Origin: Pedobacter nanyangensis
Lineage (GTDB): Bacteria > Bacteroidota > Bacteroidia > Sphingobacteriales > Sphingobacteriaceae
DNA: 64,000 nt
Reading direction: 5' to 3'
NCBI RefSeq assembly: GCF_003313505.1
Contig: NZ_QMHO01000001.1
Location: 248,001 to 312,000 of the forward strand
Below, piece by piece: positions 8,757 to 17,091 of this stretch (within the stretch, counting starts at the first letter, position 1; every line of letters starts with the position of its first letter). Under the pieces are notes generated by a model that ran no database searches, was not told the origin of the DNA, and saw nothing but the letters and a program-made list of their open reading frames with translations. A program made the translations under genes and the position numbers.

Positions 8757-9308
8757 TTGAGCACACAACCCAAATTATCCGAACAAGAGATCATCGCTTT
8801 GCTCTTAAAGCGAGATGAGAAAGGATTTAACTATCTATATGATAATTATGCAGGGGCCATTTATGGTATCATTACCAAGGTAGTGCACTTAAAAGAATAT
8901 GCCGACGAGATTATACAGGATGTCTTTGTTAAGATTTGGAAAAATATAGGGCAATTTGATGCGGAAAAAGGTCGCTTATATACCTGGATGATTAACTTGG
9001 CACGCAATACGGCCATTGACTATATCAGGTCCAGAGGCTATCAGAACGAGCAAAAAAACCAAACTATTCCAGAATTCGTAAATGATAGCGAGCAATACGC
9101 CACCGTCACCAACGTTGACCACATTGGCATGAAAAACGTGCTGTCGCAACTAAAAGGAGAATGGCGGGAATTGATAGAATTAGCTTATTTCAAAGGATAT
9201 ACACAACAGGAAATCGCTGAAAGACTTGATATCCCTATTGGAACCATTAAAACGAGAACTAGAAACGCCTTGATTGAGTTGAAAAGATTATTAAAAGATT
9301 ACCGATAA
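8757..9308 (+). CDS. ECF-type RNA polymerase sigma factor (TTG start)
   Basis: The 183-residue protein has region 2 (FNYLYDNYAGAIYGII, ADEIIQDVFVKIWKNI, YTWMINLARNTAIDYIRS) and region 4 (WRELIELAYFKGYTQQEIAERL, IPIGTIKTRTRNALIELK) of ECF sigma-70 factors, close in style to SigK-type members. The only suitable start is a TTG at 8757; no ATG or GTG lies near the conserved N-terminus. The anti-sigma gene follows after 1 nt and also starts with TTG, so the pair is tightly coupled. msrB is divergent from it across a 101-nt gap. Confidence 0.93.
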   Translation: MSTQPKLSEQEIIALLLKRDEKGFNYLYDNYAGAIYGIITKVVHLKEYADEIIQDVFVKIWKNIGQFDAEKGRLYTWMINLARNTAIDYIRSRGYQNEQKNQTIPEFVNDSEQYATVTNVDHIGMKNVLSQLKGEWRELIELAYFKGYTQQEIAERLDIPIGTIKTRTRNALIELKRLLKDYR

Positions 9309-9309
9309 A

Positions 9310-10125
9310 TTGGACATTAAAGATTACATATCGTCTGGTATTATAGAAGCCTATGTGATGGGTTTAGCCTCTGAGGAGGAAATACGCATTCTGGACTGTA
9401 TCCAAAAGAACAATCCCGAGGTGAAGCAGGCTATTATTGACGCACAAAATACATTGGAAGATTTTGCGTCGCAGCAGGCTATTGCCCCACCTCCCAATCT
9501 TAAATCAGCAATATGGGCCAAAATTAGCGATGACCAAGAAAACCCTGTTGCTGTTGAAGATATACCGGCAGCACCTGTTGCAAAACCTCTTTATCCGGCA
9601 CAAAGTACAGATCACAGCAAAGCAACCTTAAAATGGTTTGCTATTGCTGCTTCTATTTTATTAATCGCCAGTGCGTCCCTGAACCTTTATCTCAACAATG
9701 CTCAAAATACGATAAAAAACCAAGTTGCAGCTTTAACCGAAGCGCAAAAGGACAACCAGCTTGCTTATCAAAACCTAAAGAGTAAGTGGGATATGGCCAG
9801 CAACCCCCAAATGAAATCTATTCCATTGTTAGGAGTTGCAAAACACCCTAACATGAAGGCCATGGTTTATTTGGAGCAAAAATCCAACAATGTATATTTG
9901 GCGTTGGAAAACCTGCCTGCAACTGCCAAGGAGCAACAATACCAGCTATGGGCCATTGTAAATGGAAAACCCGTTAGCCTAGGCGTATATAATCAGGATT
10001 CGGAAACTGCGGTGCAAAAAATGACGGCCATTGCCTCGGCACAAGCCTTTGCCATTACTTTGGAAAAGAGGGGCGGTAGTGAAACGCCAACCATGGAAAA
10101 TATGTATGTAATGGGCAAGATTTAA
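9310..10125 (+). CDS. RskA-like anti-sigma factor (TTG start)
   Basis: A 271-residue single-pass membrane protein. The N-terminal part (DIKDYISSGIIEAYVMGLAS) is a zinc-free anti-sigma domain, a transmembrane helix lies around residues 110-128 (WFAIAASILLIASASLNLYL), then a short coiled coil and the periplasmic RskA domain (MKAMVYLEQKSNNVYLALENLP, QYQLWAIVNGKPVSLGVY). It should hold the adjacent ECF sigma at the membrane until proteolysis releases it. It begins 1 nt after the sigma stop with a TTG; the conserved N-terminus right after this TTG confirms the start. Confidence 0.92.
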   Translation: MDIKDYISSGIIEAYVMGLASEEEIRILDCIQKNNPEVKQAIIDAQNTLEDFASQQAIAPPPNLKSAIWAKISDDQENPVAVEDIPAAPVAKPLYPAQSTDHSKATLKWFAIAASILLIASASLNLYLNNAQNTIKNQVAALTEAQKDNQLAYQNLKSKWDMASNPQMKSIPLLGVAKHPNMKAMVYLEQKSNNVYLALENLPATAKEQQYQLWAIVNGKPVSLGVYNQDSETAVQKMTAIASAQAFAITLEKRGGSETPTMENMYVMGKI

Positions 10126-10129
10126 ACCC

Positions 10130-10858
10130 TTATTTAGCGAAAGCCCATTCTAAAAACTTTGGCAATACCTGCCCCCACGTAGGCACATTATGTTTACCGC
10201 CAACCATTTCGTAATAAAAGATATCCCTAGGCCGTTCGTATCCCTTTTTCATCAGTTCTTTGATCACATCCACCGTGTCATCTATCGAATCAATGATAAA
10301 GTTTTGATTACGGTCTGCCGTTTCATCTTCTGTACCTGTCATTAACCAAAACTGCAAATTAGGCCTGTCGGGAGTTTCTCTAACCATCTCGTGCAAAATT
10401 CGGTCATCATCGGTATAATCTTTTGATAGATCTTTTTTACGCCACCAAAAAGAGCCCGAAAACACCCCCACCAGGTCAAAAATATCACTATGGTGCCAAG
10501 CAATATCAAAAGCGGTTAAACCACCCAATGAAAAGCCTGCAAAAGCTTTTTTACCATTAATGGTTTTTCCGAATTGCTTTTGGATAAAAGGCAATAGTTC
10601 TCCCATTACAAATGCGGTGTACAAATCGGACTTGCCACCCCTGCCTTTGAAATCAGGCCTGTTAGCAACTCCATACTCCAGCAAACGTTGTTCCCCAGCA
10701 TAAATCCCAACGGTAATTACGGGATTTATTTTCCACTTATTTTGCAGCTCCAACAAATGATCTTCCAAGCCCATTTGCAACAAGTCTTGCCCATCATTCA
10801 CCAAAAGCAAGTTTACGATTTCGTTGCCCAACAGATTTGCGGGAACATAAACGTCCAA
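10130..10858 (-). CDS. Esterase D/enterochelin-esterase-like alpha/beta hydrolase (start uncertain)
   Basis: The 242 residues contain the alpha/beta hydrolase signature of the PF00756 esterase family: VNLLLVNDGQDL at the start, GFSLGGLTAFD with the nucleophile Ser near residue 110, an acid candidate in GTEDETADRN and the catalytic His in GGKHNVPTWG. The family cleaves carboxylic esters, including siderophore and acyl esters. The annotated TTG at 10858 may be too late: the frame stays open for about 20 more codons upstream (reading IKTTYQIKSKYLQRTVD), which look like the normal family N-terminus but contain no ATG, GTG or TTG. It is divergent from the second esterase gene. Confidence 0.85.
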   Translation of the reverse strand: MDVYVPANLLGNEIVNLLLVNDGQDLLQMGLEDHLLELQNKWKINPVITVGIYAGEQRLLEYGVANRPDFKGRGGKSDLYTAFVMGELLPFIQKQFGKTINGKKAFAGFSLGGLTAFDIAWHHSDIFDLVGVFSGSFWWRKKDLSKDYTDDDRILHEMVRETPDRPNLQFWLMTGTEDETADRNQNFIIDSIDDTVDVIKELMKKGYERPRDIFYYEMVGGKHNVPTWGQVLPKFLEWAFAK

Positions 10859-11065
10859 ATCAACCGTACGTTGAAGATATTTCGATTTTATTTGATAGGT
10901 AGTTTTGATAAACAGTATCGTTAATGTTTGCGGTTATTCTTCTAATTCCGCTACAAAGTTATCATTATCTCAAAAACCTACAGCCATTAAGTAGACAAAA
11001 AAAATAGGTATTATTTTTTTTGTAACTGAAAATGACTAACTTAAATTCTATAACCATTATACCGA

Positions 11066-11770
11066 ATGAAAGAGGAATTACAAAGATGGTACAGCCCCAA
11101 CCTCAACAGAGAGATCGAAACTTTGGTTTTTGGCCATAGCGGCTATCCCATTATTTTATTTCCCACCAGCATGGGAAGATATTACGAAAACAAGGATTTT
11201 AAGTTAATAGAATCCGTGCAGCACTTCATTGAAGAAGGGAAGGTTAAAATTTACTGCCCCGATAGTATTGATTCCTTAAGCTGGTACAACAAGAGCATAC
11301 ATCCTGCGGAAAGAGTGAAAAACCATATCTGGTACGATAAGTTCTTATTAGAAGAGCTGTTTCCCCTTGCAAGCAGCGAAACGGGAAGGGACAAAGTCAT
11401 TACGGCCGGATGTAGCTTTGGCGGCTACCATGCGGTGAACTTTGCATTCCGGCATCCTTGGGCAATAAGCCATGTTTTTAGCATGAGTGGCGCTTTTAAC
11501 ATCAGAGGTCAACTGGATGGCTTTTATAACGACGATGTTTATTTCAACAACCCTATTGATTATATCCCAAACAATATGAATCCCGAGCTTTGGCAGCTTA
11601 AAATTGTTTTGGGCACTACTGACCGCGATATGTGCCGGGCTGACAATGAAAATCTATCGGGAATTTTACATCAAAAAGGAATTAGCCATTGGCTGGACAT
11701 AAAGCCCAACGCAGACCATGACTGGCCAATATGGAGAGAAATGTTTCCCGAATATGTCTATCAGATTTAG
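11066..11770 (+). CDS. Esterase-like alpha/beta hydrolase, first gene of the amide-ligase operon
   Basis: The 234-residue protein is a second PF00756-type hydrolase. It has GYPIILFPTSMGRYYE near residue 30, the nucleophile elbow AGCSFGGYHAVNFAF near residue 116, the acid region GTTDRDMCRADN and the catalytic His in NADHDWPIWREMFPEY. No signal peptide is seen, so it should act in the cytoplasm. It lies 63 nt ahead of an ATP-grasp ligase and heads a same-strand run of five genes (11066-16033). In such a setting it could release or trim the ligase product; that role is inference. Confidence 0.88.
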   Translation: MKEELQRWYSPNLNREIETLVFGHSGYPIILFPTSMGRYYENKDFKLIESVQHFIEEGKVKIYCPDSIDSLSWYNKSIHPAERVKNHIWYDKFLLEELFPLASSETGRDKVITAGCSFGGYHAVNFAFRHPWAISHVFSMSGAFNIRGQLDGFYNDDVYFNNPIDYIPNNMNPELWQLKIVLGTTDRDMCRADNENLSGILHQKGISHWLDIKPNADHDWPIWREMFPEYVYQI

Positions 11771-11833
11771 GAATAGGAGCTCATAATTAGAAAAGAATAC
11801 TTCAGCACAATCAACACTTTAAACATATATACT

Positions 11834-12865
11834 ATGAAAAAAATCGGAATTTTATTTGGACAGGAGCGTTCATTCCCACAAGCTTTTGTAGACAGGGTGA
11901 ACCAAAAGGCGGTTGAAAACATTACCGCGGAATTTGTAAAAATAGACAAGGTTTTCCAAGCCGAAAAACCTGAATATGCCGTAATTATTGACCGTATTTC
12001 GCAGGATGTACCTTTTTACAGGGCTTACTTAAAAAATGCGGCCATGGGCGGCACGGCAGTTATTAACAATCCCTTCTGGTGGAGTGCCGATGAGAAATTT
12101 TTCAACAATGCCTTAGCCGAAAACATTGGGGTGCCTGTACCCAAAACGGCATTAATTCCTTCTAGAGAGCATCCCGACGACACCAATGAGCATTCGTTTA
12201 CCAATTTGGTGATGCCCTTTGATTGGGAGGCGATATTTAATTACGTGGGTTTTCCTGCCTACATGAAACCTTTTGACGGCGGCGGCTGGAAAGAGGTTTA
12301 CAAACTGGAAAGCATGGAAGAGTTTTTTGAAAAACACAGCCAAACCCAACAAACGGTAATGATGCTGCAAGAAGAAATTATTTTCGAAGAGTATTTTAGA
12401 TGTTATTGCATTGGCGGCAAGCATGTACGAATTATGCCGTACGAACCGCGCAACCCGCACCACCTACGTTATGTGGTTAATGGGCCAAAACCAAGCGATA
12501 AGCTATTAAAAAAGATTGAAGAGTACACCTTAAAACTTAACCAATATCTGGGTTATGATTTTAATACAGTAGAATTTGCGGTGAGAAACGGCGTTCCAAT
12601 TGCCATCGATTTTTGTAATCCGGCGCCAGATGCAAGCCTGGAAAGTGTTGGCCAAGAAAACTTTGAATGGGTAGTTGAAACCGCCGCTAATTATGCAATA
12701 GAAAAAGCATTGGCTCAAGAATTTGGCAAAAACAACCTCACTTGGGGAAACTACGTTAAAACCAGCGCTGCCGGCACGCCCTTAACCACAAAAGTTACCA
12801 AAGCAACGGCCAGTACCAAAGCGGTAGCCAAACCAAAAGCAACTGCCAAAAAACCGATTAAATAA
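11834..12865 (+). CDS. RimK-like ATP-grasp ligase with a lysine/alanine-rich tail
   Basis: The 343-residue protein has an ATP-grasp fold: pre-ATP-grasp domain (IGILFGQERSFPQAFVDRVN), the ATP-binding loop YMKPFDGGGWKEVYK near residue 145, the adenine-contact strand VMMLQEEIIFEEYFRCY and the metal-binding end AIDFCNPAPDASLE near 256. ATP-grasp enzymes join a carboxylate to an amine or thiol through an acyl phosphate. From about residue 305 the chain becomes a low-complexity, histone H1-like tail rich in Lys, Ala and Thr (ending AKPKATAKKPIK). It precedes the GCS2 ligase by 18 nt. Substrate unknown. Confidence 0.88.
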   Translation: MKKIGILFGQERSFPQAFVDRVNQKAVENITAEFVKIDKVFQAEKPEYAVIIDRISQDVPFYRAYLKNAAMGGTAVINNPFWWSADEKFFNNALAENIGVPVPKTALIPSREHPDDTNEHSFTNLVMPFDWEAIFNYVGFPAYMKPFDGGGWKEVYKLESMEEFFEKHSQTQQTVMMLQEEIIFEEYFRCYCIGGKHVRIMPYEPRNPHHLRYVVNGPKPSDKLLKKIEEYTLKLNQYLGYDFNTVEFAVRNGVPIAIDFCNPAPDASLESVGQENFEWVVETAANYAIEKALAQEFGKNNLTWGNYVKTSAAGTPLTTKVTKATASTKAVAKPKATAKKPIK

Positions 12866-12883
12866 CGCTAAACCGAACTATCT

Positions 12884-13984
12884 ATGAACGAGTTTACATT
12901 AGGGGTCGAAGAAGAATACATGATCATTGATCCCATTACCAGAGAGCTAACCTCTCATGACCAAAAGATTGTAGAGGCAGCACAAAAAATACATAAAGAC
13001 CAGGTGAAAGCAGAAATGCACCAGGCCGTGGTAGAAGTAGGGACCAGTATTTGTAGAAATACAGATGAAGCAAGAGCAGAAATTTCGCAACTGCGAAAAA
13101 CCGTGGCAGAACTTGCAGGCGAACAGGGCCTGCGCATTGGCGCTGCTGGCACGCATCCTTTTTCGCATTGGGAAAAACAGCTCATTACCGAACATCCTCG
13201 CTACAGTGAAATTGTAAACGAACTACAGGAAGCCGCCAGGTCCAACTTAATTTTTGGTCTACATGTACACGTAGGTTTCCAATCACGAGAACTGGCCATA
13301 CATATTGCCAACCAGGTACGCTACTTTTTACCGCACGTATTTGCCCTTTCTACCAATTCGCCCTTTTGGGAGGGAAGAAACACTGGGTATAAATCGTTTC
13401 GCACAAAAGTGTTCGACAAGTTTCCCCGAACTGGCATTCCTGATATTTTTAATAGTATTGAAGATTATGACAATTATGTGAAGCTCTTGATCAAGACCAA
13501 TTGTATAGACAATGCGAAAAAAATATGGTGGGATATTCGTGTACACCCTTTCTTCGAAACCATTGAGTTTAGGGTATGTGATTGCCCTATGCTGATTGAT
13601 GAAACAATGGCCTTTACGGCCATTTTTCAGGCACTATGCGCCAAATTGTACAAGTTGCGCTTACAAAATTTAAACTTCATTTCTTACAGCAGGGCACTCA
13701 TTAACGAGAACAAATGGCGGGCCGCCCGTTACGGCATTGACGGAAATTTAATAGATTTTGGGAAAGAAATGGAAGTAAATTGTCGAAATTTGGTCCTTGA
13801 ATTGTTAGATTTTATAGATGACGTAGTAGACGAGCTAGGCAGCCGAAGGGAAATTGAGTACGTACACAAGATTTTGGCCAACGGAACTGGGGCCGATAGA
13901 CAGCTGGCGGTTTATGAACAAACCCAAAGCTATGAATCAGTAGTAGACTACATCACTACACAAACATTAATAGGTGCGAAATAA
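12884..13984 (+). CDS. GCS2/YbdK-family carboxylate-amine ligase
   Basis: The 366-residue protein belongs to the glutamate-cysteine ligase 2 family (COG2170), which uses ATP to form an amide between a carboxylate, often glutamate, and an amine. The N-terminus FTLGVEEEYMIIDPITREL is diagnostic, followed by EMHQAVVEVGTSICRNTDEA, the His-containing NLIFGLHVHVGFQ near residue 125, DIRVHPFFETIEFRVCD and INENKWRAARYGIDG. Its place between an ATP-grasp ligase and an amidotransferase makes plain glutathione synthesis unlikely and suggests a dedicated small peptide or amide product; this is inferred from context. Confidence 0.93.
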   Translation: MNEFTLGVEEEYMIIDPITRELTSHDQKIVEAAQKIHKDQVKAEMHQAVVEVGTSICRNTDEARAEISQLRKTVAELAGEQGLRIGAAGTHPFSHWEKQLITEHPRYSEIVNELQEAARSNLIFGLHVHVGFQSRELAIHIANQVRYFLPHVFALSTNSPFWEGRNTGYKSFRTKVFDKFPRTGIPDIFNSIEDYDNYVKLLIKTNCIDNAKKIWWDIRVHPFFETIEFRVCDCPMLIDETMAFTAIFQALCAKLYKLRLQNLNFISYSRALINENKWRAARYGIDGNLIDFGKEMEVNCRNLVLELLDFIDDVVDELGSRREIEYVHKILANGTGADRQLAVYEQTQSYESVVDYITTQTLIGAK

Positions 13985-13988
13985 AAAG

Positions 13989-14816
13989 ATGAACGATAGC
14001 AACAGTATTAAGGTAGCCATTATTGATATGAATATGGGCTTCCCTAACCAGGGAATGAGGGGTATACAGGAAATTTTACACCAATATAAAACTGATAATC
14101 ACCTCAATTTAACCATTGACATATTTGACATTAGGAAAAAAGGAGAAGTCCCAGATTTAAGTTACAACATTTACATTTCAAGCGGCGGCCCTGGAAACCC
14201 TTACGATGGAGAAGGCCAGCAATGGGAAAGCAGTTTTTTTAATTTATTGGACCAAATTGACAACTTCAATCTGATCAGCGATGAAAAAAAATACGCATTC
14301 TTGATTTGCCATTCTTTCCAACTAGGCTGTAGGAAGTATCAATTGGGCGAAGTAACCCAGCGAAAATCCAATGCCTTTGGGATTTTTCCCATCTCCTTAA
14401 CTGCAGAAGGTGAAAAAGAACCTATTTTTAACGGCCTTAACAATCCATTTTTTTCGGTAGACAGTAGAGATTGGCAGGTTATACAACCCAACCGCAAGGC
14501 CTTTGAAAAAATAGGCGCCAAGCTATTGGCCATTGAAAAGGATAGACCGCACGTAGACTTGGAAAGATGCATGATGGCCATACGCTTTTCGCCTTATGTA
14601 ATCGGCACCCAATTTCATCCGGAAGCTGACCCTACAGGCATGAAAATTTATTTATTACAGGAAGAAAAGAAAGAAGCCATTATTAAAAACCACGGCGAAG
14701 ACAAGTATTATGACATGTTGAACAGCTTGGAAAATCCAGATAGAATTATGCTAACCAAAGGCGTTATTTTACCAAATTTCTTGGATGAAGCCATTCATGC
14801 GCTGCAATTCGCATAA
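13989..14816 (+). CDS. Class I glutamine amidotransferase-like protein
   Basis: The 275-residue protein has the class I GATase layout: a Rossmann-like start (IKVAIIDMNMGF), oxyanion strand IYISSGGPGNPYD, a nucleophile-elbow Cys in FLICHSFQLGCRK near residue 106 and the His/Glu pair in GTQFHPEADP near residue 208. Thus the triad appears complete, although the elbow lacks the usual GxCxG glycines. It could supply ammonia from glutamine to a neighbouring ligase, or hydrolyse a gamma-glutamyl bond. I used the ATG at 13989 rather than the overlapping GTG at 13974. It starts 4 nt after the GCS2 gene. Confidence 0.85.
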   Translation: MNDSNSIKVAIIDMNMGFPNQGMRGIQEILHQYKTDNHLNLTIDIFDIRKKGEVPDLSYNIYISSGGPGNPYDGEGQQWESSFFNLLDQIDNFNLISDEKKYAFLICHSFQLGCRKYQLGEVTQRKSNAFGIFPISLTAEGEKEPIFNGLNNPFFSVDSRDWQVIQPNRKAFEKIGAKLLAIEKDRPHVDLERCMMAIRFSPYVIGTQFHPEADPTGMKIYLLQEEKKEAIIKNHGEDKYYDMLNSLENPDRIMLTKGVILPNFLDEAIHALQFA

Positions 14817-14845
14817 ACGCTTATTCTTAATCCTTAAGGCTACCC

Positions 14846-16033
14846 ATGATTGAAAAATACAGAACAGCTTTTAATGCCGGTTTCAGTGAGCAGAAATACG
14901 AGGATTTCTTAGGAAAGATTACCTTAGGATATCCCGAAATTACGTTTAGGCTGGCCGAATCTCCTGTTTTTATTCCTGAAGAACTAAAGCAACAATTGAT
15001 TGCTGCAGGAGATCAAATCATCTCAACAATTAAACGCAGCGACTTTAAAGAGATCACCAAAAATGCTATCCCTAAAGATTGGATAGTGCCCAATGAGAAC
15101 GATCACCCACATTTTTTAACTTTTGATTTCGGTATTTGCAGGGACGAGCATGGAGAAATCAAGCCAATGCTGATTGAAATGCAAGGGTTCCCATCGCTGT
15201 ATGGCTTTCAAGCTCATTTGGCAAACACCTATAAAGAGTGCTTTAACCTTAACCCACAACTTAGTCCTTTTTTTAACGGTTTAAATGAGGAAAGCTATTT
15301 CAATTTACTGAAAAAAGTGATTGTGGGCCAACACCACCCCCACCAGGTAATTCTTATGGATGTTGATGCGCTCAATCAAAAGACTGTAATCGATTTCCAT
15401 GTTACAGCCAACAAACTGGGTATTAAGATCTTACCCTTAGAAGAAGTAAAAAAGGAAGGAAGCAAGCTATATTACATGGAAGATGACAAAAAAGTGCTGA
15501 TCAAGCGGATTTACAACCGCCTGATTTTTGATGAAATTGCAGGACAAAATTCCATGTTTGAGCACAGCTTTGATCCTAGAGAAGACGTAGAGGTGGAATG
15601 GATAACGCACCCCAACTGGTTTTACCGCATCAGTAAATATACGATGCCAATGCTAACAGGCGAGTTTGTTCCCGAAACGAGGTTTTTAAACGAGCTCACC
15701 GAGCTACCGTCTGACTTGGAAAATTACGTTTTAAAGCCCCTGTTTTCTTTTGCCGGAATGGGTGTAATCATAGACGTAAAAGAAAGTGATATCCGTGAAA
15801 TAAAGGATCCCGAGAACTGGATATTACAGCGTAAAGTAACTTACGAACCCATTGTAAAAGCTCCTGATGGTGGTGTAAAAGTAGAATTAAGATTGATGTA
15901 TTTATGGCCTGATGGCGAAGAACCGCAGCTTTGCATCAATTTGGCCCGCTTAAGTCGTGGTAAAATGATTGGCGTACGCTATAACGCCGATTTTGATTGG
16001 GTTGGAGGCACCGTTGGCTTGATGGAATCTTAG
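14846..16033 (+). CDS. Divergent ATP-grasp-like protein, last gene of the amide-ligase operon
   Basis: A 395-residue cytoplasmic protein of no certain family. The region PMLIEMQGFPSLYGFQ (about residue 110), NYVLKPLFSFAGMGVIIDV (about 295) and WILQRKVTYEPIV followed by VELRLMYLWPDG and INLARLSRGKMIGV resembles the Lys-binding, glycine-loop and Glu/Asn metal-binding parts of ATP-grasp enzymes of the glutathionylspermidine-synthase type. It follows the amidotransferase by 29 nt and ends the operon. Two ATP-grasp-like proteins plus a GCS2 ligase would give three amide-forming steps. The fold assignment is my reading of motifs. Confidence 0.65.
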   Translation: MIEKYRTAFNAGFSEQKYEDFLGKITLGYPEITFRLAESPVFIPEELKQQLIAAGDQIISTIKRSDFKEITKNAIPKDWIVPNENDHPHFLTFDFGICRDEHGEIKPMLIEMQGFPSLYGFQAHLANTYKECFNLNPQLSPFFNGLNEESYFNLLKKVIVGQHHPHQVILMDVDALNQKTVIDFHVTANKLGIKILPLEEVKKEGSKLYYMEDDKKVLIKRIYNRLIFDEIAGQNSMFEHSFDPREDVEVEWITHPNWFYRISKYTMPMLTGEFVPETRFLNELTELPSDLENYVLKPLFSFAGMGVIIDVKESDIREIKDPENWILQRKVTYEPIVKAPDGGVKVELRLMYLWPDGEEPQLCINLARLSRGKMIGVRYNADFDWVGGTVGLMES

Positions 16034-16038
16034 ACAAA

Positions 16039-17091
16039 CTATAATTTTACCTGCCTGATGATATTCTTAAGGTTAAGCTCAATAATATCCGTCATGTTCT
16101 TACAATCTTCATAGGCCGATTCCTTGTAGTAAACTGCCATACTTTTTTTTAGCCTCGTGATATTTTCTTTAGTCGTTAGCTCCTCTTTACAAGAAACATC
16201 CCTCAAATCGGTTAAACGATGGCGTTCACTGCGTACCCGATGTACAATGGACGACAATTCTTCCTGTTTGTACTGCTGAACCGTTTTCTCGGTGAGGTGC
16301 TCCATGCACAGTTTTACCAAAGGATAATTTTCCTTGAAAAATTGCGGCATGTAAACCTTGATATTGCCCTCGTAAAACTGCTGATCGAAATCTATTGCCC
16401 GTATGCGGAATTGGATATCGTCGAAATCAGGGGTTATTTGCACTACAAAATTGTAAGAACGCATGTCGCCCAACAAAGTAACCAAACAGCGCTCGTTAAA
16501 CTTTACAAACTCTTTTGCAATACGGGTAGGATTGTATTCCGCTTGATGTATCATTCCTTGGTTGAACACGTCACCAGGCAAACCCACAATATGCTCCTCG
16601 ATCATGGTATCGCCATCAACCAAATAATTTACCTGGTTTGGCGAAAGGATCTCCTCCAGTTCCAGGCCATAAATCCTGGAAGCGTCCGCCTTTTTCACAT
16701 AAAAATAATCGTAAACATCATTTAGGCGGTTCACTATTCTTATTCTAAATGGATGGGTGTTCCCAAAAGTACAATAGTCAATCCTATCGATATATTTATG
16801 CTCTACGATGCGCAAATTCCCTGAAGCTTTTAATTTGGCGTAAATTACCTTTAAACCGCTGTGCAGCTCCTCCATTTGACCCTGGGCATAGATAGGGCTT
16901 TCCCATAAAGTATCTTTACCGCTTTTATCTAGTATCGGATAGCTCTCGGTAAACGCTTTCAGCGCTTCGTAATTTACGGGCAAGCGTGCATCCCGCTGGT
17001 AGGTACGCAGGTATTTATGCAAATTTTCGCTAACTGGAAATATGGGCTTCTTTCTCGAAATCTTTACATCTGTTATTTCCATACCAATCAT
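16039..17091 (-). CDS. Uncharacterised protein with kinase-like catalytic motifs
   Basis: I do not recognise this 350-residue protein as a named family. Its centre reads LGDMRSYNFVVQ near residue 207 and IRAIDFDQQFYEG about 25 residues later. That spacing matches the catalytic loop (D....N) and metal-binding DFD of protein-kinase/aminoglycoside-phosphotransferase folds, though the HRD histidine is missing. No signal peptide or membrane segment is visible and the C-terminal third is helical and charged. It converges on the amide-ligase operon with a 5-nt gap, leaving no room for a terminator. An ATP at 17082 (Met 4) is an alternative start codon position. Confidence 0.75.
   Translation of the reverse strand: MIGMEITDVKISRKKPIFPVSENLHKYLRTYQRDARLPVNYEALKAFTESYPILDKSGKDTLWESPIYAQGQMEELHSGLKVIYAKLKASGNLRIVEHKYIDRIDYCTFGNTHPFRIRIVNRLNDVYDYFYVKKADASRIYGLELEEILSPNQVNYLVDGDTMIEEHIVGLPGDVFNQGMIHQAEYNPTRIAKEFVKFNERCLVTLLGDMRSYNFVVQITPDFDDIQFRIRAIDFDQQFYEGNIKVYMPQFFKENYPLVKLCMEHLTEKTVQQYKQEELSSIVHRVRSERHRLTDLRDVSCKEELTTKENITRLKKSMAVYYKESAYEDCKNMTDIIELNLKNIIRQVKL

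Follow-up and report, generated by a model that had tools for sequence, protein, structure and literature searches.

A window of 64,000 nucleotides from the draft genome of Pedobacter nanyangensis (4.74 Mb; positions 248001-312000 of contig 1) contains five intact plus-strand genes at 11066-16033 that behave as one co-inherited set across the Bacteroidota. In order, these genes encode an esterase-like hydrolase (est1), an ATP-grasp ligase with the predicted fold of RimK and LysX (AG1), a YbdK-type carboxylate-amine ligase (GCS2), a class I glutamine amidotransferase-like protein (GAT), and a predicted circularly permuted ATP-grasp protein (AG2), with intergenic gaps of 63, 18, 4, and 29 nt. 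The reading that we tentatively favor is that the set makes a small gamma-glutamyl-type peptide without a ribosome or a nonribosomal peptide synthetase (NRPS) and that AG2 and GAT together cap a carboxylate of this peptide as an amide. A sequence-only reading of the window had described the tight same-strand run, and all five frames, positions, and spacings proved correct; a conserved sixth gene, encoding a divergently transcribed esterase (estDiv), was absent from that account. The start of GAT is taken here as the ATG at 13989, whereas the mechanical list of open reading frames gives a GTG at 13974 that overlaps GCS2. Family assignments were made by Pfam and NCBIfam profile scans at E<=0.01 and were judged against curated cut-offs.

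Co-occurrence and gene order across the Bacteroidota

Each of the five proteins was searched against the same 148 Bacteroidota genomes, where AG1 was present in 60, GCS2 in 52, AG2 in 49, GAT in 40, and est1 in 63. These counts leave out weak GAT matches in three genomes (G046, G127, and G134), weak or partial esterase matches in five (G054, G065, G097, G122, and G143), and weaker second matches in genomes already counted; the GCS2 match of one genome (G004) is only 33% identical. All three ligases occur together in nearly a third of the sampled genomes (46/148), yet AG2 passes no curated model; 86 genomes have none of the ligases and 16 have part of the set. Pairwise co-occurrence gave Fisher p values from 1.3e-10 to 1.5e-32 across the 148 genomes and from 7.6e-6 to 1.7e-18 at the level of the 82 genera, deeper phylogeny being ignored in both cases.

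Gene order is also conserved. Of the 28 genomes containing all five genes, 14 have them in a single same-strand run in the order of the window, with successive gaps of up to 2 kb. Among 80 named AG2 loci, namely the best 80 of 579, with a bias to Pedobacter and Mucilaginibacter, GAT was contained in 70, GCS2 in 52, AG1 in 46, estDiv in 42, and est1 in 39, and the order estDiv (divergent)-est1-AG1-GCS2-GAT-AG2 was seen in 37. Flanks of up to 10 kb were fetched and several of these loci end at contig edges, so that the adjacency counts are lower bounds. The sequence-only reading had staked its operon on the genes not being separated in close relatives, and this held in part: both sampled genomes of the same genus (G080 and G138) have the single run, but two genomes of the same family (G002 and G122) lack the ligases, and in three further families (f22, f25, and f26) the genes are dispersed yet mostly co-present, one f22 genome (G144) having GCS2 and AG2 alone. 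Its grouping of three amide-forming ligase types with an amidotransferase and an esterase was borne out by the joint inheritance of the set and by the inspected catalytic residues, which are nearly always kept. A plasmid-borne element was considered and rejected, as AG1, the only protein searched for this, had no match among 72,556 plasmid records.

The AG2 ligase

No Pfam or NCBIfam profile detects AG2 (14846-16033, plus strand) at the scan threshold, and the protein falls below the cut-off of PF03738, the glutathionylspermidine synthase family (13.5 versus 29.3 bits). When PF03738 was compared with AG2 relatives, 23 of 60 matched at E<=1, with a best value of 0.00092, and the search of the window's own genome with this profile returned nothing at E<=1. 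The predicted structure (pLDDT 92) has a circularly permuted ATP-grasp fold over the whole chain and scores 26.3 against YgiC, 25.1 against GspS (glutathionylspermidine synthetase), and 24.8 against human glutathione synthetase; folds missing from the Foldseek/VIA lists were taken as no evidence. On the structure model, AG2 thus appears to belong to the circularly permuted ATP-grasp superfamily that includes YgiC, GspS, and the eukaryotic glutathione synthetases, which gives a more definite identity to what had been called a second divergent ATP-grasp-like protein. Lys297, which we take to be the ATP-site lysine, is present in 93/93 relatives, and Glu111, presumably the metal-site glutamate, is invariant across 60 sequences and aligned with its counterparts in YgiC and GspS. 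The names that databases attach to AG2 relatives are automatic only (such as "Circularly permuted type 2 ATP-grasp protein" or "glutathionylspermidine synthase"), and the nearest named relatives are from Pedobacter, including one from P. chitinilyticus with 86% identity. Searching the solved structures with the single sequences of AG2, AG1, and GAT gave nothing useful.

In the characterized enzymes of this fold, namely YgiC, GspS, and human glutathione synthetase, a peptide carboxylate is joined to an amine. Escherichia coli YgiC and YjfC are reported to be peptide-spermidine ligases, and YgiC carries the RefSeq name peptide--spermidine ligase. AG2 differs from both YgiC/YjfC and GspS at 12-13% identity and has Gln113 where, in a loose alignment, both have Asn.

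In one genome (G125; L148:4637-7237, plus strand), AG2 shares an 867-amino-acid frame with an N-terminal sodium:solute symporter (PF00474), an arrangement that was not seen in other genomes of the same family. A close sequence relationship between AG1 and AG2 was also considered and discarded, as profile comparison of the two gave nothing.

The AG1 and GCS2 ligases

GCS2 and the ATP-grasp enzymes share an established chemistry in which ATP is used to form an acyl phosphate that is then attacked by an amine. AG1 (11834-12865, plus strand) has no Pfam match at E<=0.01, and its best NCBIfam match, rimK_fam (TIGR00768), reached 35.6 bits and not the cut-off of 143.4. Its predicted structure scores 20.6 against RimK and 19.5 against ArgX/LysX, with rows within 1 of each other counted as tied and other ATP-grasp types at 17-18, and on this model AG1 is probably an ATP-grasp protein of the RimK/LysX fold. 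The enzymes nearest to AG1 act on proteins, and the graspetide ligases PsnB and MdnC are among those scoring 17-18 against it; these likenesses would suit a role for AG1 in modifying a protein or carrier, or a role for the ATP-grasp enzymes in tailoring a ribosomal precursor into a graspetide. We consider such a role improbable, as the gaps within the operon do not exceed 63 nt and leave no room for a precursor or carrier gene, and no such gene recurs near 100 loci among open reading frames of at least 80 amino acids, a limit that shorter ones could escape. Open reading frames of 21-78 amino acids overlap the gap upstream of the operon. The C terminus of AG1 (window positions 12760-12862) is a low-complexity tail rich in Lys, Ala, and Thr that is modeled at pLDDT below 50; a tail of this type is found in several Pedobacter and Mucilaginibacter relatives, and many others are without it.

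GCS2 (12884-13984, plus strand) is a single-copy gene in the window's genome, and its product matches PF04107 at 212.9 bits (cut-off, 21), PRK13515 at 545.9 bits (cut-off, 371), and TIGR02050 at 299.9 bits (cut-off, 176.4). A comparison with the YbdK structure 1r8g gave an E value of 1.5e-49, and by these matches GCS2 is a YbdK-type carboxylate-amine ligase. It falls under all of the glutamate-cysteine ligase equivalog cut-offs, coming closest with PRK13517.1-3 (342.9 versus 409 bits).

These last comparisons bear on whether the operon makes a thiol. GCS2 and a glutathione synthetase fold are the right pair of folds for a route in which GCS2 would produce gamma-Glu-Cys and AG2 would extend it to a glutathione analogue, and YbdK has been reported, according to a title cited in PMC2588565, to have gamma-glutamyl:cysteine ligase activity. 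Such a route would leave AG1 and GAT without a job, its first step is not favored by the sub-cut-off equivalog scores, and BshC of bacillithiol synthesis is encoded in 147 of the 148 genomes whether or not they have the operon (144 of these matches being over the cut-off). We regard a glutathione-like thiol as a very improbable product, and the distribution of BshC is also why a replacement for bacillithiol was rejected. An ordinary glutathione setting, which the sequence-only reading had named as a threat to its interpretation of GCS2, did not materialize: the glutathione synthetase family PF02955 (GshB) has no match in the window's genome, while 9 of 14 control genomes match, and the best score for GshF (TIGR01435) is 21.4 against a cut-off of 656 bits and lies elsewhere than the operon. 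With GCS2 below its own equivalog cut-offs as well, ordinary glutathione synthesis was set aside, the search having covered these families and not those of the GshA type.

The amidotransferase and its ligase partner

GAT (13989-14816, plus strand) matches PF00117 at 35.9 bits (cut-off, 22.8), and no second Pfam family was detected at E<=0.01. Its Cys107-His210-Glu212 triad is intact and is kept in 84/84 relatives, so that GAT is, as far as its profile match and residues indicate, a class I glutamine amidotransferase-like protein. Each of the 40 genomes with GAT also encodes either AG2 (30 genomes) or a second type of protein, designated c24 (10 genomes), and in 21 of the 30 genomes holding both, GAT and AG2 are same-strand genes no more than 5 kb apart. 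The c24 protein is about 450 amino acids long and shows weak similarity to PF14403 and PF04174, both of them families of circularly permuted ATP-grasp proteins, but reaches neither cut-off (23.7 versus 32 bits and 20.8 versus 23.1 bits, respectively). It was matched in 39 genomes, of which only the 11 with E<1e-80 were counted. In all 10 genomes that have GAT but not AG2, the coordinates place c24 between AG1 and GAT; the remaining counted genome (G137) has a remoter c24 alongside AG2 and no GAT. The distribution of AG1 follows the same pattern, with 48 of 58 AG1 genomes having AG2 and 10 having c24, and the other 2 (G007 and G087) having 35% identical AG1 proteins without any partner. The possibility that c24 is an ortholog of AG2 was not retained, given a weak profile comparison (48 columns) and the sub-cut-off family scores. 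In the f19 genomes (L163:5912-7036 and L164:6546-7667), where c24 replaces AG2, a more distant GCS2 (47-48% identity) is encoded far from the AG1-c24-GAT run.

The distribution of GAT also bears on a role in handling amines or protecting groups. In putrescine utilization by PuuA and PuuD, substrates pass through a gamma-glutamylated form, and some class I amidotransferase-like proteins are gamma-glutamyl hydrolases; by analogy, GCS2 could attach a gamma-glutamyl group to an amine or an amino acid, which further enzymes would process before GAT strips the group again. Three ligases exceed what this route requires, PF00117 is the sole Pfam family detected in GAT, and GAT tracks AG2 or c24 (40/40) more strictly than it tracks GCS2 (32/40). 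A role of this kind seems quite unlikely.

Proposed pathway

In the amide-capping reading, GCS2 would activate a side-chain carboxylate, most likely that of glutamate, and link it to an amine to form a gamma-glutamyl amide. AG1, by its likeness to RimK and LysX, would attach a further amino acid. AG2 would then activate the remaining carboxylate and GAT would supply glutamine-derived ammonia, yielding a primary amide, so that the two might act as one glutamine-dependent amide synthetase. The two PF00756 esterases may act on an ester or thioester of the precursor or product. Both the amidation of the product and its peptide-like nature are our inference from the enzymes, and the order of the GCS2 and AG1 steps as well as all of the substrates are guesses. 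The ammonia step is proposed mainly because GAT is always accompanied by AG2 or c24.

Several observations weigh against this scheme. AG2 occurs without a detected GAT in 19 of 49 genomes, which implies that AG2 need not take ammonia from GAT and makes the ammonia step the weakest part of the proposal. Of the 10 c24 genomes, 6 gave no match to GCS2, so that this ligase is not always needed, and the 16 genomes with only part of the ligase set likewise depart from a fixed pathway. In addition, AG2 is equally near to polyamine ligases and to other members of its fold, and we know of no named member of that fold that is glutamine dependent.

Some of the same evidence suits a peptidyl-polyamine pathway, in which GCS2 and AG1 would build a gamma-glutamyl peptide, AG2 would add a polyamine in the way that GspS and YgiC add spermidine, and GAT would recycle or trim the product as a hydrolase. 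The 19 AG2 genomes without GAT keep this alternative alive, whereas the presence of AG2 or c24 in every GAT genome suggests that GAT serves the ligase, and the glycine-using eukaryotic glutathione synthetases score nearly as well against AG2 as the polyamine ligases do. We judge a polyamine product to be on the unlikely side and give it about half the weight of amide capping.

Taken more broadly, and with more reserve than the amide-capping scheme itself, it is possible that many Bacteroidota have a glutathione-independent peptide-capping pathway that parallels glutathionylspermidine and trypanothione synthesis. Such a pathway would use GCS2 as the starter, a RimK-type ligase as the extender, and a protein of the YgiC/GspS fold with its own glutaminase as the capper, the capper being replaced in some families by a different circularly permuted ATP-grasp protein, and would yield a gamma-glutamyl peptide that stays in the cell as an amide or as a polyamine conjugate. 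If the proposed scheme is right, many bacillithiol-encoding Bacteroidota would produce an uncharacterized peptide amide or peptide-polyamine, probably within the cell, that might serve as a cofactor, an osmolyte, or a stress metabolite, and the YgiC/YjfC fold would gain a pathway context. The standalone enzymes can be assayed singly.

Relation to known systems

The nearest known logic is that of N-acetylglutaminylglutamine amide (NAGGN) synthesis by asnO, ngg, and an M42 peptidase, which shares with the proposed pathway the use of a ligase and an amidotransferase to make an amidated small peptide (PMC8070244). The likeness extends to some relatives of the operon that have an M42 peptidase beside GAT. 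The enzymes themselves differ, as NAGGN synthesis uses an asparagine-synthase-like amidotransferase and a GNAT-family Ngg (PMC8070244), whereas the operon has ligases of the GCS2, RimK, and GspS types. Membership of the relatives' peptidases in the NAGGN trio was examined and rejected, since the M42 proteins of three of them score 35.3, 39.5, and 36.7 bits against a TIGR03106 cut-off of 397.75 bits.

A second parallel comes from the synthesis of E-64, in which Cp1B, a ligase of the glutathione synthetase fold, forms amides without an NRPS (PMC12568646); a ligase of the fold predicted for AG2 can thus make an amide independently of an NRPS. The E-64 pathway differs in being fungal, in using epoxysuccinate as the substrate, and in pairing Cp1B with an ANL amide bond synthetase. 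YgiC/YjfC and GspS, the closest relatives of AG2 by fold, differ in context, the neighbors of AG2 being GCS2, a RimK-type ligase, and an amidotransferase; AG2 also scores below the PF03738 cut-off.

The Aravind group has noted in general terms that ATP-grasp and COOH-NH2 ligases can be linked in mixed amidoligase operons (PMC4431377), and a family resembling GCS2 has been described beside thiol peptidases of the amidotransferase-like type (PMC2588565). The terms GCS2, carboxylate-amine, and amidotransferase are absent from PMC8939145. No description of the five-gene set was found in the literature searched, a scope outside which most subscription papers and the 2009 amidoligase survey fall. 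Each of the enzyme classes is known; the conserved combination and the swap of the ligase partner appear undescribed.

Esterases and variable neighbors

The two esterases flank a putative divergent promoter region (10859-11065), for which 21 Pedobacter-type intergenic regions were aligned. est1 (11066-11770, plus strand) matches PF00756 at 33.6 bits (cut-off, 22) and has Ser117 in 48 of 49 sequences; of the 60 genomes with AG1, 58 also have est1. estDiv (10130-10858, minus strand; start codon uncertain) matches the same family at 91 bits, and Ser110 and His223 are present in 47/47 sequences. Relatives of the esterases gave no hint of a substrate, and the suggestion of the sequence-only reading that the esterase trims the product gained no support. 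The alignment revealed a conserved box, CAAAGTTA, at 10954-10961 facing estDiv and another, TAACTTAA, at 11037-11044 facing est1, both of which we take to resemble the Bacteroidota -7 element.

Peptide- and amide-cleaving enzymes recur among the variable neighbors of AG2 and GAT and would be compatible with peptide or amide bonds in the product, although they are no proof of them. Two lineages have an M29 aminopeptidase gene between those for GCS2 and AG2, and four named loci and one further genome encode an M42 aminopeptidase close to GAT; the window's operon itself has no M42 gene. An Amidohydro_3 gene immediately precedes AG2 in 9/9 sampled genomes of families f22 and f25; in six loci (L035, L100, L104, L119, L126, and L138), such a gene is located shortly before GAT. 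Amidohydro_3 was matched in 106 of the 148 genomes, so that only the position of the gene, and not the presence of the family, is informative. No transporter or regulator was constant across families among the conserved neighbors in the loci inspected.

In three loci, a small gene for a ferredoxin-like 4Fe-4S protein accompanies Amidohydro_3 directly before AG2 (L145:4605-7607, L146:6050-9154, and L156:5997-9003); the ferredoxin-like assignment comes from a family scan of L145, and the genes of L146 and L156 were matched to that of L145 by BLAST. The convergent gene that follows AG2 in the window (16039-17091, minus strand; 350 amino acids) was not recognized by any Pfam or NCBIfam profile at E<=0.01, and just 3 of the 80 named loci contained a match to it. 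Just beyond estDiv, the window encodes a sigma factor of the extracytoplasmic function (ECF) class together with an anti-sigma factor of the RskA type (8757-10125), which were matched near the operon in 6 and 4 of the 80 named loci, respectively, so that any regulatory link would be local.

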